Assembly (NCBI GenBank): GCA_003221695.1
Contig: QHSX01000070.1
Coordinates: 1-36,771, forward strand
Direction: 5' to 3'
Length of the DNA: 36,771 nt
Source of the DNA: Candidatus Rokuibacteriota bacterium
GTDB taxonomy: Bacteria; Methylomirabilota; Methylomirabilia; Rokubacteriales; CSP1-6
Below the pieces are notes generated by a model. It was not told the DNA's origin and did not search any database. It was given only the letters and a program-made list of their open reading frames with translations. A program made the translations under genes and the position numbers. This document shows, in pieces, positions 24,583 through 32,908 of this stretch (positions within the stretch are counted from its first letter, which is position 1; each line of letters starts with the position of its first letter).

Positions 24583-25269
24583 ATGGACACGACCTCGAAC
24601 ACCGCAGTGCTGTTCGACTTCGGCGGGACGCTCGATGCCGACGGGCTCGCCTGGAAGGAGCGCGTGTATCGGCTCTTCAGGGACGAGGGTGTCGCCGTCG
24701 AGCGCGCGCGCTTCGATCCCCTGTTCCACGCGGCCGACGACGCGCTGGTCGGAACGCTCTCGCCGACGACCTCCTTCGACGCGACGGTGGCGCGCCTGGT
24801 CGCCGCCGTGGCGGCGGCGCTCGGCCTCGCCGATCCACGGATGACCGCGCGCCTCGCGCGGCGCTTCGTCGACGACGCGCTCGGGCACCTCGGCGACAAC
24901 GTCCCCCTGCTCAGGCGCCTCGCGCGCCGGGCCCGCCTCGGGATCGTGTCCAACTTCTACGGCAACCTTGCGCGCGTGTGCGAGGACGCGAAGATCCGGC
25001 CGCTCTTCAGTGTCCTCGTCGATTCGGCCGCGGTCGGCTGCGCGAAGCCGGAGCCACGGATCTTCCTCCACGCGCTCGCGGCGCTCGGGCTCGGGCCCGC
25101 CGACGCGACGTTCGTCGGCGACTCGCTTCCACGCGACATGGCCGGAGCGCGCGCGGTCGGGATGCGCCACATCTGGCTGGTCAGCGAGGCGGCCCCGGCC
25201 CAGGATCCCTGCTGCCGGGGCGATCGGGTGATCCACTCCCTCAAGGACCTCGAGGGACTGCTCCTGTGA
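24583..25269 (+). CDS. HAD superfamily hydrolase, variant motif I
   Basis: A 228-aa haloacid-dehalogenase-fold hydrolase, probably a small-molecule phosphatase. Motif I is DFGGTL (nucleophile D12), motif II is IVSNFYG, motif III is the Lys in CAKPEPRIF and motif IV is FVGDSLPRDMAGA. The usual DxD of phosphatases is DxG here: the second Asp, the general acid/base, is Gly14. This variant occurs in some HAD subgroups but may change activity. An alpha-helical cap lies between motifs I and II (about 30-110). ATG 24583 was preferred over ATG 24529, whose extra 18 residues look like leader DNA. It is the first gene of the plus-strand operon. Confidence 0.88.
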   Translation: MDTTSNTAVLFDFGGTLDADGLAWKERVYRLFRDEGVAVERARFDPLFHAADDALVGTLSPTTSFDATVARLVAAVAAALGLADPRMTARLARRFVDDALGHLGDNVPLLRRLARRARLGIVSNFYGNLARVCEDAKIRPLFSVLVDSAAVGCAKPEPRIFLHALAALGLGPADATFVGDSLPRDMAGARAVGMRHIWLVSEAAPAQDPCCRGDRVIHSLKDLEGLLL

Positions 25270-28153: not shown

Positions 28154-29182
28154 ATGCTGCGCGGCGCGATCGTCGGCGTCGGCAACATCGCCCTCCAGGG
28201 GCACGTGCCCGCCTGGCGCCGCCGGCGCGACGTCGAGATCGTCGCGGGGACGGACGCGCGCCCGGCGCAGCGCACCGCGCTTGCCACGCACCTGCCCGGC
28301 GCGCGCTGGTACGACTCCGCCGACGCGCTCTTTGCCGACGCCCGCCTGGACTTCGTGGACATCGCGACGCCGCCGTCGAGCCACGCGCCGCTGATCCGGG
28401 GCGCGCTCGATCGGGGCCTCCACGTGCTCTGCGAGAAGCCGCTCGTCCATTCGCTCGACGACCTCGGGTCGCTGCGGGCCCTGGCGGAGGCGCGTGGCCG
28501 CGTGCTCCACACGGTCCACAACTGGCATCATGCCCCGATCGTGCGGCGCACGGCCACACTCGTGCGCGAGGGGGCGATCGGCCGGGTGACGCGGGTCGAC
28601 TGGCACACGCTTCGCACCCGCCCGGCGGCGGCGGGCGACGGCGACGAGGCGAACTGGCGCCTCGATCCGCAGATCGCCGGCGGGGGCGTGCTGGCCGATC
28701 ACGGCTGGCACGTGTTCTACATCGTCCAACGCTGGATCGGTGAGGCCCCGCAGTCGGTGAGCGCGCGGCTCGAGACGCGGCGGCACACCGGCTGGGCCGT
28801 GGAGGACACCGCCACCGTGCGGCTCACCTACGCGCGCGCGACGGCCGAGATCCTCCTGACGTGGGCCGCCGACGAGCGGCGCAACTGGGCCGCGGTGACG
28901 GGCACCGACGGCACGATCGAGCTCCAGGACGACACGCTCGTGGTTACGCGCGCCGGCAACGGCACGAGCCGCTGGCCCTGTCCCCCGGCGTTGTCCGGCG
29001 GCGGGTACCATCCGGACTGGTTCGACGCGGTGGCGGAGCAGTTCCTCGCCGAGGTCGCCGGCCAGGGGCCGCGCGGCGCCAACCTCGACGAGGCGTCGCT
29101 CTGCGTCGCGCTGGAGCGCTCGGCGCGCGCGTCGAGCCTCGCGGGCGGTCGCGGCGTCGCGCTGGGCGAGGTGTCAGGCTGA
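28154..29182 (+). CDS. Gfo/Idh/MocA family oxidoreductase
   Basis: NAD(P)-dependent dehydrogenase of the glucose-fructose oxidoreductase / inositol dehydrogenase family, 342 aa. The N-terminal GAIVGVGNIALQGHVPAW carries the glycine-rich fold. ATPPSSHAPLIRGALDRGLHVLCEKPLVHS contains the family EKP motif, with the catalytic Lys in EKP. WRLDPQIAGGGVLADHGWH (about residues 168-186) matches the substrate-binding domain, including the usual DxGxH-like DHGWH site. It probably oxidises a hydroxyl of a sugar, cyclitol or sugar-like alcohol to a ketone, which the neighbouring aminotransferase could aminate. Confidence 0.92.
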   Translation: MLRGAIVGVGNIALQGHVPAWRRRRDVEIVAGTDARPAQRTALATHLPGARWYDSADALFADARLDFVDIATPPSSHAPLIRGALDRGLHVLCEKPLVHSLDDLGSLRALAEARGRVLHTVHNWHHAPIVRRTATLVREGAIGRVTRVDWHTLRTRPAAAGDGDEANWRLDPQIAGGGVLADHGWHVFYIVQRWIGEAPQSVSARLETRRHTGWAVEDTATVRLTYARATAEILLTWAADERRNWAAVTGTDGTIELQDDTLVVTRAGNGTSRWPCPPALSGGGYHPDWFDAVAEQFLAEVAGQGPRGANLDEASLCVALERSARASSLAGGRGVALGEVSG

Positions 29183-30342
29183 CAGACGCGCTGCTCCTCG
29201 TCGTTCCACCCGAGCCCGGCGTGGCCGAGCGCGTCCCGCCGGGGACGGTCGTGGCGGGTCTGCCTCTGCTGCGAAGGATCGTCCTGGCGGGGGCGCGCGC
29301 CGGGTTTGCGGATATCCGTGTGCACAAGGCCCTCGCGGGCGCCGAGGACCTGATCGTGGGCACGCGCGCCGCCACGCTCACCCCCGACGAGCCGGACACG
29401 CCGCGCGGGTCACGCCGTATCGTGATCGTGCCGGCGAACCTCGTTCCCCAGCCGCGCTGGCTCCGGTCGCTCCTCGACGCGGAGCTCTCCCCGGAGGCGA
29501 TCTACGTCGATCCGGCGCTGACCGCGGTGATCGTGACCGCGGACCCGGCCCGCGTCCTCGCGGGCGCGGCGCGCTGCCGAAGCGCCGGCGAGCTGCTCGG
29601 CGAGCTCCGCGGCGCGTCGGTCGAGCTCCCGGGCGCGTTCGAGCTGGCGGGGCGATTCGTCCTGACGGCGCGCGGCGATGTGCGGCGCGCGGAAGCCTGG
29701 CTCCTGCGCGGCCTCATCAAGCAGCGGGAGGGCTTCATGTCGCGTCACGTCGAGCGACGGATCTCGCTCGCGCTGACGCGGCGGCTCGTCGCCACGCGCG
29801 TCACGCCCGACGCGATGACGCTGGTGAGCGTCGCCGTCGGCCTCGTGGGCGCGACGTTCTTCCTGTCGGTGTCACCGGGGTACCAGCTCGTCGGGGCGCT
29901 CCTCTTCCTGGCCCACTCGATCCTCGACGGCTGCGACGGCGAGCTGGCGCGACTCAAGCTCATCGAGTCGCGCCGCGGGGCGATCCTCGACTTCTGGGGC
30001 GACAACCTCGTCCACGCCGCCGTGTTCGGGTGCATCGCCGTCGGCTGGACACTCACCACCGGGGCGGTGTGGCCGCTCGCCCTCGGGGCCGTGACGATCG
30101 CAAGCGGGCTCGGATCGGCGGCGTGCGTCTTCCGTCGGACGTTGCTCGACGTCGTGTCGGGCGCCGGGGCCTCCATGACGGATCGCCTCACCGAGGCCTT
30201 CGCCCACCGGGACTTCATCTACCTGGTCGTCGTCCTGTCGGCCTTCGGCCGGGCCGACGTGTTCCTGGTCCTCGCGTCCGTCGGCACGCCGATCTTCCTG
30301 CTCCTGCTGCTGTGGGTCGGCGCGGCGCGCCGCCGGGCCTGA
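29179..30342 (+). CDS. CDP-alcohol phosphotransferase with a degenerate N-terminal nucleotidyltransferase domain
   Basis: A two-part membrane protein of about 387 aa. The C-terminal part (from about residue 205) has the CDP-alcohol phosphotransferase motif D-x2-D-G-x2-A-R-x8-G-x3-D-x3-D intact (DGCDGELARLK followed by GAILDFWGD), with hydrophobic helices on both sides. It swaps a CDP-bound alcohol for another alcohol phosphate or lipid. The N-terminal part, DALLLVVPP then VVAGLPLLRRIVLAGARAGF, looks like a sugar nucleotidyltransferase fold that has lost the GxGxR loop; it resembles fusions such as IPCT-DIPPS but would be inactive. No ATG or GTG fits at the start. CTG 29179 gives a 4-bp CTGA overlap and full-length strand 1; GTG 29221 would cut it. 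Confidence 0.82.
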   Translation: MTDALLLVVPPEPGVAERVPPGTVVAGLPLLRRIVLAGARAGFADIRVHKALAGAEDLIVGTRAATLTPDEPDTPRGSRRIVIVPANLVPQPRWLRSLLDAELSPEAIYVDPALTAVIVTADPARVLAGAARCRSAGELLGELRGASVELPGAFELAGRFVLTARGDVRRAEAWLLRGLIKQREGFMSRHVERRISLALTRRLVATRVTPDAMTLVSVAVGLVGATFFLSVSPGYQLVGALLFLAHSILDGCDGELARLKLIESRRGAILDFWGDNLVHAAVFGCIAVGWTLTTGAVWPLALGAVTIASGLGSAACVFRRTLLDVVSGAGASMTDRLTEAFAHRDFIYLVVVLSAFGRADVFLVLASVGTPIFLLLLLWVGAARRRA

Positions 30343-30348
30343 GGGGCT

Positions 30349-31920
30349 GTGGCCGGTTTCGTCGATGTCGTGCTCCGCGGCCTGGCGCTGTGCGGCCAGG
30401 CGGTGGCGATCGGCGGCGTGCTGTTTGCGCTGCTGGTCCTCCGGCCCGCGGTGCACGCGCGGCCCGCCCTCGTGCCGCTGCTCGACCGGAGCCTCGCATT
30501 CTCGGCGGTGGGTGCAGCCGTCGTCTGTGTCGCGCAGCTCCTCTCGCTCGCCGTCGGTCTCGGCTCGCTGGCCGGCGATGACGGCTGGCCCGTCCGGGAC
30601 CTCCTCGCCACGACCTACGTCCGGACGGTCGCCGTCCGCGTCCTCGCCAGCGCCGGGCTGGTCGTCGGCGCTCTCCGCCTCCGCCGGGGGACGGGCAGGG
30701 GGCGCGGCTGGCTCGCGCTCTGTGGGGTGGCGCTGGTGCTGGCGGCGAGCGCGTCGTGGACCAGTCACGCGGCGGCGCGCCTGGGGTCGCGCGGCCTGCT
30801 ACTGGCGCTCGATGGCGTCCACCAGCTCGCGGCAGCGGCGTGGGTCGGCGGCCTCGCGCACCTCGTCGTCACGGGGCTCGGGCGGAGCGAGCGCCTGTGG
30901 CCGGCGCTCTTGCTCCGACGCTTCTCGGCGCTCGCGCTCACGGCGGTCGGGATCCTCGTGGCCGGCGGCCTCGCGCTCACGCTCGCGTTCGTCGGCGGCG
31001 TCCTCCCGCTGCTCGGGACCGCGTACGGCATGATGGTGCTCACCAAGGTGGCGATCCTCGCCGCCCTCCTGCTCCTCGGCGCGCTGAACTTCGTCGCGGT
31101 GCGCCGGCTCCCGCCGGAGGCCGACGTCGGCTCCGCGCGGCTCCGTCGGCTCGTCGAGGTCGAGCTCGGGCTCGGCCTCACGACCCTGTTCGTCGCGGCG
31201 TCGCTGACCTCGCTCCCGCCCGCGGTCGACGTGGTCACGGACCGCGCGACGCTCGCCGAGGTCGTCACGCGGTTCACCCCCAAGTGGCCGACGCTCTCGT
31301 CGCCGCCGATCGAGGCGCTGCCCGTGGACGATCGTGACGCCCCGCGGACCGCCGCGGACCGCGCGTGGTCCGAGTTCAACCACAACGTCGCCGGGCTGTT
31401 CGTGCTCACCATGGGGCTGCTCGCGATCGTCCACGCGACCGGCCGCGCGGGCTGGGCGCGCCACTGGCCGCTGATCTTCCTCGGGCTCGCCGCCTTCCTG
31501 GCGATCCGCGACGACCCCGGCGCCTGGCCGCTCGGGCCGTTGGGGTTCTGGGAGAGCTGGGCGTATCCCGCCGTGCTCCAGCACCGCGTGTTCGTCCTGC
31601 TGGTCATCGTCTTCGCGATCTTCGAGTGGATGGTCCGCGCGGGGCGCCTGCGCACCCGGCAGGCGGCGCTCGTCTTTCCGCTCGTCTGCGCGGTCGGCGG
31701 GGGCTTCCTCCTGACGCACTCGCACGCGAGCCTCGGGCTCAAGGAAGAGTTCCTGACGGAGGTGACCCACGCGCCGCTCGGCCTCCTCGGGATGCTCGTC
31801 GGCTGGGGCCGATGGCTCGAGCTCGGGCTCCCGTCGCCCGAGGGACGGATTCCCCGGTGGCTCTGGTCCGGCGCGCTCGCCGCGGTCGGTGTCCTGCTGA
31901 TCTTCTATCGGGAGAGCTGA
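30349..31920 (+). CDS. CopD-like multi-pass membrane protein
   Basis: A 523-aa integral membrane protein with roughly a dozen hydrophobic segments. The LDGVHQLAAAAWVGGLAHLVV region (about 155-175) matches the CopD signature (H-x-L-a-a-a-x-W-x-G-G). A possible second module follows after about residue 340, with an FNHNVAGLFVLTMGLL segment and late helices ending LLTHSHASLGLKEEFLTEVTH, which is His-rich. CopD proteins are placed in copper handling. Here the context is a lipid or alcohol-phosphate biosynthesis operon, so a role in metal supply or periplasmic electron transfer is possible but not shown. GTG 30349 lies 6 bp after the upstream stop. Confidence 0.78.
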   Translation: MAGFVDVVLRGLALCGQAVAIGGVLFALLVLRPAVHARPALVPLLDRSLAFSAVGAAVVCVAQLLSLAVGLGSLAGDDGWPVRDLLATTYVRTVAVRVLASAGLVVGALRLRRGTGRGRGWLALCGVALVLAASASWTSHAAARLGSRGLLLALDGVHQLAAAAWVGGLAHLVVTGLGRSERLWPALLLRRFSALALTAVGILVAGGLALTLAFVGGVLPLLGTAYGMMVLTKVAILAALLLLGALNFVAVRRLPPEADVGSARLRRLVEVELGLGLTTLFVAASLTSLPPAVDVVTDRATLAEVVTRFTPKWPTLSSPPIEALPVDDRDAPRTAADRAWSEFNHNVAGLFVLTMGLLAIVHATGRAGWARHWPLIFLGLAAFLAIRDDPGAWPLGPLGFWESWAYPAVLQHRVFVLLVIVFAIFEWMVRAGRLRTRQAALVFPLVCAVGGGFLLTHSHASLGLKEEFLTEVTHAPLGLLGMLVGWGRWLELGLPSPEGRIPRWLWSGALAAVGVLLIFYRES

Positions 31921-31921
31921 C

Positions 31922-32908
31922 CTGCGTTCCGTCCGCGCGGCGCTGCTCGTCCTCGGCGTGGGCCTGCTCGCCGTCCTCGTGGCGACGAACGACCCGGCGG
32001 CGATCCTCGCCTCGATCGTCCAGCTCTCCTGGCGGCTCGCGATCGTCCTCTGCTTCCCGGTGGTGCTGGTCATGGTGTTCGACACGCTCGGCTGGCGCTT
32101 CGCGTTTCTCCAGGAGGGCGTTGCCTTCCGCACCCTCCTCTGGGTCCGGCTCGCGGGCGAGGCGTTCAACGTCGCGACGCCGACGGCGGCGCTCGGCGGG
32201 GAAGCGGTCAAAGCCTGGCTCCTGCGGGGCCTGGTCCCGCTCGACACGAGCGTGCCCTCTGTGATCGTCGCGAAGACCACGATCACGATCGCGCAGGGCC
32301 TCTTCCTGCTGCTCGGCATCGTGCTGGCCTTCGCCGGCACGCTCCCCGGGTCGCCGCTCCTCTATGGAATGCTCTGGCTCCTCGCGATCGAGACGGTCGC
32401 GCTCGCGGGCTTCGTCGTCGCGCAGACGCGCGGTCTGCTCGGGTGGGGCGGGCGGCTCGTCGCCCAACTCGGGCTCGAGCACGGGCACGGGGAGGCGCTC
32501 GGGCGCATCGACGAAGTGCTCGCGCGCTTTTACCGGACCGCCCCCTGGCGCCTCGTCCTCTCGCTCGCGTTTCATCTGGTTGCGTGGCTGCTCGGCTCGC
32601 TCGAGGCCTGGCTGATCTTGCAGTTCCTGGGCGTCCCGGTCTCGCTGACGACGGCCACCGTGATCGAGTCCTTCGGCACGGCGGTCCGCTTCGCCACGTT
32701 CCTGATCCCGGCGAGCCTCGGCGCCCTCGAGGGCGGCTACGTGGTCACGTTCGCCGCGCTCGGCCTCGGACCGGCGACGGCGGTCGCGTTCAGCCTGGTG
32801 CGCCGGGTGCGCGAGGCCGCCTGGGTGGGCCTGGGTCTGCTCGTCTTCGCGCTGGCCCGCCCCGCGGCTGGGCCGCTCCCGGATTCGCCTGCGGCGAGGC
32901 GAATTTAA
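31922..32908 (+). CDS. Flippase-like membrane protein (lysylphosphatidylglycerol synthase TM / UPF0104 family)
   Basis: A multi-pass inner-membrane protein of about 328 aa. The conserved GEAFNVATPTAALGGEAVK region (about 80-98) is the family's P-x-x-x-L-G-G-E motif, and a second region with IPASLGALEGGY (about 260-271) is also typical. Members of this group are implicated in moving phospholipids or lipid-linked groups across membranes, or are near aminoacyl-lipid synthases. CTG 31922 is the suggested start: GGGAGAG lies 5 nt before it and it gives a full first helix (RSVRAALLVLGVGLLAVLVA). The GTG at 31958 would remove half of that helix. It is the last gene of the operon, and a hairpin covers its stop codon. 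Confidence 0.8.
   Translation: MRSVRAALLVLGVGLLAVLVATNDPAAILASIVQLSWRLAIVLCFPVVLVMVFDTLGWRFAFLQEGVAFRTLLWVRLAGEAFNVATPTAALGGEAVKAWLLRGLVPLDTSVPSVIVAKTTITIAQGLFLLLGIVLAFAGTLPGSPLLYGMLWLLAIETVALAGFVVAQTRGLLGWGGRLVAQLGLEHGHGEALGRIDEVLARFYRTAPWRLVLSLAFHLVAWLLGSLEAWLILQFLGVPVSLTTATVIESFGTAVRFATFLIPASLGALEGGYVVTFAALGLGPATAVAFSLVRRVREAAWVGLGLLVFALARPAAGPLPDSPAARRI
32883..32906 (+). terminator. Terminator-like hairpin over the flippase stop codon
   Basis: ATTCGCCT (32883-32890) pairs perfectly with AGGCGAAT (32897-32904) around a 6-nt loop and is followed by TT and AAAG. The tail is short, so termination may be partial. It marks the end of the operon and precedes the amidase gene. Confidence 0.5.

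Follow-up and report, generated by a model that had tools for sequence, protein, structure and literature searches.

A CDP-alcohol phosphotransferase with a degenerate N-terminal nucleotidyltransferase domain in a conserved bacterial operon that also encodes an intact nucleotidyltransferase

AF2299 of Archaeoglobus fulgidus (PDB 4o6m, 4o6n, 4q7c) is a CDP-alcohol phosphotransferase (CDP-AP) whose N-terminal domain has been described as 'cytidylyltransferase-like' (PMC4634129). In the AF2299 chimeras, pockets of this domain bury two TM2-TM3 loop residues, L75 and F77, and when 14 different phosphatidylinositol-phosphate (PIP) synthases were given the domain, expression rose in all constructs tested (PMC4634129). 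The bifunctional IPCT-DIPPS proteins (IPCT, inositol-1-phosphate cytidylyltransferase; PDB 4mnd; NF041135) carry a nucleotidyltransferase (NTase) half that is active, with an intact IPCT active site of GxGxR, Lys, and metal Asp. Neither AF2299 nor IPCT-DIPPS processes lipids, and six-TM CDP-APs use soluble acceptors (PMC4634129). For a Bacteroidetes cluster of NTase, CDP-AP, HAD, and INO1 genes, a route to inositol lipids by way of CDP-inositol has been proposed (PMC9246714). Among soluble enzymes, the non-catalytic GMPPA interacts with and regulates the active GMPPB (PMC11228364).

We analyzed a window of 36,771 nucleotides from a Candidatus Rokuibacteriota bacterium (contig QHSX01000070.1), in which positions 29179‒30342 encode a CDP-AP of 387 residues with a degenerate N-terminal NTase domain; this gene and all other window features described here lie on the forward strand. 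The frame is open and coding, with full-length relatives of 34‒88% identity in dozens of genomes. Searches of one genome collection with the product gave 358 candidate stretches, 80 of which were retained for analysis, and among 45 near-complete genomes related to that of the host, 43 contain some match. No ATG, GTG, or TTG was found in frame near the start, and the CTG at 29179, which overlaps the TGA of the preceding gene as CTGA, is most likely the start codon. The same CTGA overlap is repeated in many of the Rokubacteria examined, and at three other loci (L001 at 3962, L016, and L086) the CDP-AP frame is closed upstream with no usably placed ATG, GTG, or TTG.

The only Pfam match of the product is CDP-OH_P_transf (PF01066) at residues 208‒318, with 38.8 bits against a cut-off of 22. 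The CDP-AP signature DxxDGxxAR(x)nGxxxDxxxD is complete between D250 and D275 (DGCDGELARLKLIESRRGAILDFWGD, positions 29926‒30003, including the L259/x/L261 pair, which probably corresponds to the domain-interface residues of AF2299). In the alignment of full-length relatives, D250, D253, G254, A257, R258, G267, D271, and D275 are each conserved in 70/70 rows, which bears out the earlier note in its claim that the C-terminal half keeps its catalytic Asp residues. The membrane CDP-AP domain covers residues 186‒387 (29734‒30339) and is preceded by a linker helix at residues 166‒185 (29674‒29733) in which E172, L175, L179, and K181 are almost invariant. By its signature, the product is a class-I CDP-AP, predicted to catalyze transfer from a CDP-linked donor.

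Since neither Pfam nor NCBIfam models matched residues 1‒184, we turned to structure for the fold of this part. The full-length AF2 model has a pLDDT of 90.7 and a pTM of 0.86, and residues 1‒180 predicted separately reached a pLDDT of 93; residues 1‒165 (29179‒29673) take an NTase fold both alone and within the full protein (pLDDT 91‒93). A Foldseek search with the model of residues 1‒180 returned 184 matches with E < 0.001, and the matches listed are NTases, among them IspD, MurU, KdsB, GlmU, RmlA, and the A. fulgidus IPCT. Of the 50 best solved matches, nearly all are NTases, and the highest Z is 13, for an alignment of about 165 residues. Alignment with stand-alone IPCTs by hhalign gave a probability of 93%. 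The prediction thus returned for the N-terminal half the NTase fold that the earlier note had proposed.

The best match of the full-length model is AF2299, with a Foldseek E of 1e-13 and a Z of 27.4 when both domains are superposed over 327 residues; IPCT-DIPPS comes next (Z 24.5), and then many NTases (Z about 12‒13). Its membrane half adopts the multi-TM fold of AF2299 and of native PgsA1 (Z 17‒18 for the latter), and the profile E values of the window sequence follow the same order (AF2299, 1.5e-40; IPCT-DIPPS, 4e-27; mycobacterial PgsA1, 2e-6). The resemblance to IPCT-DIPPS that was first noticed stands, and it extends to domain order, fold, and a related CDP-AP half, but AF2299, and not IPCT-DIPPS, is the closest solved structure over both domains.

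The fused domain has no GxGxR loop across 70 relatives, the two rows with matching letters being chance hits, and the stretch ahead of G27 is shortened. In the hhalign comparison, N87 (codon 29437‒29439) stands opposite D107, the invariant metal-binding Asp of the stand-alone IPCTs. Among the 70 relatives, 34 have Asn at this position, 13 have Gly, and 11 have Asp, so not every relative has lost all of the catalytic residues. No DxD equivalent was found near residues 161‒163 of the window protein. As read from the alignment, the N-domain has lost its active site. The contrast with the active and longer NTase half of IPCT-DIPPS also holds, since GxGxR and the metal Asp are absent, and the best NCBIfam model, NF041135 (IPCT-DIPPS), matched residues 165‒323 only, with 79.6 bits against a cut-off of 580. 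The N-domain diverges much faster than the membrane half, with a mean pairwise identity of 25% versus 55% and two invariant residues (G27 and R33) versus 25. No homologue without the N-domain was found among the complete sequences examined, and the shorter homologues lie at contig edges or have frame breaks. A tree of CDP-AP domains, calculated to ask whether the dead domain arose once, placed AF2299, IPCT-DIPPS, and two paralogues in an unresolved fork.

At about 24% identity, AF2299 and the window protein share the shortened cytidylyltransferase-like N-domain, a G..L..R..AGF segment, the linker Glu, an ARLKF stretch, and the complete CDP-AP motif. Since AF2299 already has such an N-domain, the combination of a dead NTase with a CDP-AP is not a new architecture; the new part is the bacterial family, its operon, and the arrangement in trans with a live NTase. 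What sets this family apart from AF2299 is a pair of signatures, D-F-W-G-D-N-x-V-H and R-D-F-I-Y, together with the conserved operon and its live NTase. The AF2299 architecture is therefore no archaeal oddity but that of a large bacterial family. The packing of the interface pair is known for AF2299 (PMC4634129), and the window protein has hydrophobic or aromatic residues at positions 259 and 261, which by our numbering probably correspond to L75 and F77. All 91 CDP-APs assigned an N-domain have L/I/V at residue 259 and F/Y/L/M at residue 261. The comparison covers only four short CDP-APs that lack the domain, and all four have Asn at position 261. Because of the AF2299 chimera data and this pattern with and without the N-domain, we favor a structural clamp, and a clamp on the membrane domain seems somewhat better supported than the docking or substrate sensing suggested at first.

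The separate, intact NTase that had been noticed upstream is indeed present at 25266‒25973, as the fourth gene upstream of the CDP-AP with three genes between. Profile searches and the family alignment show AAG.G.R (AAGEGSR in the window enzyme), Lys28, and Asp110 to be essentially invariant in 42 rows. The stand-alone NTases of these operons keep AAGxGxR, Lys, and Asp, and the fused domain does not; the active-site loss thus accompanies a separate live NTase, which offers a testable setting for the role of a non-catalytic domain. Among loci with enough upstream flank, an intact NTase lies within about 8 kb of the CDP-AP in 46 of 51, and none was found near the CDP-AP in five (L053, L056, L058, L059, and L077), each of which has the dead domain. 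Since the window NTase is closer to MurU/RmlA-type enzymes than to IPCT, its substrate may differ from inositol phosphate.

The two genes belong to an operon in which a HAD-type hydrolase (24529‒25269), the NTase, an ATP-grasp-like protein (25961‒26830, start uncertain), a class-III aminotransferase (26827‒28152), a Gfo/Idh/MocA dehydrogenase (28154‒29182), and the CDP-AP follow one another, and this order is conserved across phyla. It is complete in Rokubacteria, Methylomirabilota, Acidobacteria, several deltaproteobacterial groups, and Nitrospirae; Hyphomicrobiales keep it with the CDP-AP inverted, and most of the operon is present in Elusimicrobia and Hydrogenedentota. The ATP-grasp-like product is highly conserved in the operon, yet Pfam gives nothing for it. 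When 18 orthologues were combined into a profile, the matches were weak ones to ATP-grasp ligases (E 0.0025 for an ATP-grasp protein) and, among the weaker still, to inositol 1,3,4-trisphosphate 5/6-kinases. A literature search, with most subscription papers outside its reach, found no published description of this operon.

HpnL, INO1, HpnN, and squalene-hopene cyclase are recurring neighbors of the CDP-AP operon. The window encodes an HpnL-like membrane protein at 31958‒32908 (TIGR03476 / PF03706), and the INO1, HpnN-like, and hopene cyclase genes of the same genome are on another contig. HpnL lies next to CDP-AP, INO1, and NTase genes repeatedly and across phyla, both in the window and at many homologous loci. 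A CopD-like gene at 30349‒31920 was excluded from the system because it adjoins the CDP-AP only in some Rokubacteria. In Mariprofundus, the homologue is adjoined by INO1 (TIGR03450, E 4e-135), a stand-alone IPCT lies beside the CDP-AP (NF041135, E 2e-37; A. fulgidus IPCT 2xme, E 1e-22), and the loci are without the aminotransferase gene set. The Bacteroidetes cluster likewise has a stand-alone NTase, a CDP-AP, a HAD, and INO1/MIPS, with a lysylphosphatidylglycerol-synthase-type membrane protein nearby (PMC9246714); the window operon adds the aminotransferase, the Gfo/Idh and ATP-grasp-like genes, and a hopanoid-linked neighborhood. The function of HpnL has not been established (PMC12583986), and the link of the CDP-AP with INO1, stand-alone IPCT, HpnL, and HpnN is a testable lead on it, as well as on an unrecognized phospho-headgroup pathway in Rokubacteria, Methylomirabilota, and other phyla.

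Our proposal builds on the observed domain fold, NTase motif loss, intact CDP-AP motif, operon conservation, and INO1/IPCT pairing in relatives. The gene cluster looks like one for a membrane lipid, probably of the inositol type, and the presence of an aminotransferase and a dehydrogenase points to a cyclitol or sugar in modified form as the substrate. The separate operon NTase, or a stand-alone IPCT in relatives, would perform nucleotide activation in trans by joining CTP and a polyol phosphate into a CDP-polyol, much as proposed for the Bacteroidetes cluster (PMC9246714). The polyol phosphate is probably that of inositol or else of a cyclitol modified by the dehydrogenase and aminotransferase. 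The CDP-AP would move the polyol phosphate from the CDP-polyol onto an alcohol acceptor, building a membrane-lipid headgroup, and HpnL may flip the resulting headgroup lipid. The degenerate N-terminal domain would be a non-catalytic structural module packed on the membrane domain. What we infer here is the identity of the donor, the acceptor, and the end product, as well as the role of the N-domain as a clamp; given the INO1 and IPCT neighbors in relatives, the donor may be CDP-inositol and the acceptor a lipid alcohol. A CDP-inositol route to an ether-type inositol phospholipid in Rhodothermus, reportedly described by Jorge et al. in 2015, would be alike by its description, in that the polyol and not the lipid is CTP-activated before CDP-AP transfer. 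The acceptor could also be a soluble one, as is reported for six-TM CDP-APs (PMC4634129), and a soluble diester product would fit as well as a lipid. For the reading as a whole, combining an active CDP-AP, a dead structural N-domain, an NTase in trans, and a membrane-lipid headgroup, we consider the chance of being right slightly better than even.

The dead domain could instead be a docking platform that binds the live NTase as a pseudo-dimer for channeling or regulation. The frequent proximity of a live NTase (46/51 loci) would fit this idea, as would the IPCT-like gene directly upstream of the type-2 paralogues described below, and GMPPA/GMPPB may serve as a precedent (PMC11228364), although this functional analogy of a dead NTase paired with a live one comes from a soluble guanylyltransferase pair with no membrane enzyme. 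When evolutionary distances are compared by partial correlation, the N-domain paired with the NTase gives the highest value (0.34), but the values for Gfo/Idh (0.29) and the aminotransferase (0.22) show that this co-divergence (mirror-tree) signal is not specific to the NTase. Also counting against docking are the N-domain's having only G27 and R33 as invariant residues, the pairing of two different NTase types with one N-domain family, and the five loci that retain the domain and have no NTase found nearby. We therefore regard it as rather unlikely. There is a smaller chance for a more elaborate form, in which the dead domain would be a membrane-anchored docking subunit, forming a pseudo-dimer with the live NTase that passes the CDP-polyol directly to the transferase. 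The operon would then equip a membrane lipid or hopanoid of hopanoid-producing bacteria with an amino-cyclitol phosphate headgroup not described so far, and HpnL would be its flippase. Allosteric control of the CDP-AP by a retained nucleotide or polyol-phosphate pocket would be consistent with the high-confidence prediction of the NTase fold, but the nucleotide-binding loop and the metal Asp are lost and the N-domain is poorly conserved, which makes such a sensor improbable.

A catalytically active, if divergent, NTase in the N-terminal half is highly improbable: the fold is retained and 11/70 relatives have Asp at the metal position, but the family GxGxR loop is missing, the stretch before G27 is shortened, residue 87 is Asn, there is no DxD equivalent, and a live NTase is already encoded in the operon. 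A different question is whether the CDP-AP takes the lipid donor CDP-diacylglycerol, like the PIP synthases, which share its membrane fold (Z 17‒18 for native PgsA1), with the operon NTase serving another step. We find this doubtful, since the sequence is nearer to AF2299 and IPCT-DIPPS, neither of which processes lipids (PMC4634129), and the NTase is encoded in the same operon. A CDP-polyol donor, with the dead domain as a structural clamp, is the reading we prefer.

Many Rokubacteria have a second, 'type 2' CDP-AP, whose N-domain is also degenerate, and no match to it was found in the window genome. The type-2 gene usually lies directly 3' of an IPCT-like gene and 5' of HpnL and INO1 or HpnN, as at L110 (5573‒6667) and its equivalents at L111‒L115, L118, and L120. 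One Rhodospirillaceae operon (L041, 7071‒11252) brings together an IPCT-like NTase, a CDP-AP with the dead domain, a divergent INO1, and another, short CDP-AP that lacks the N-domain.
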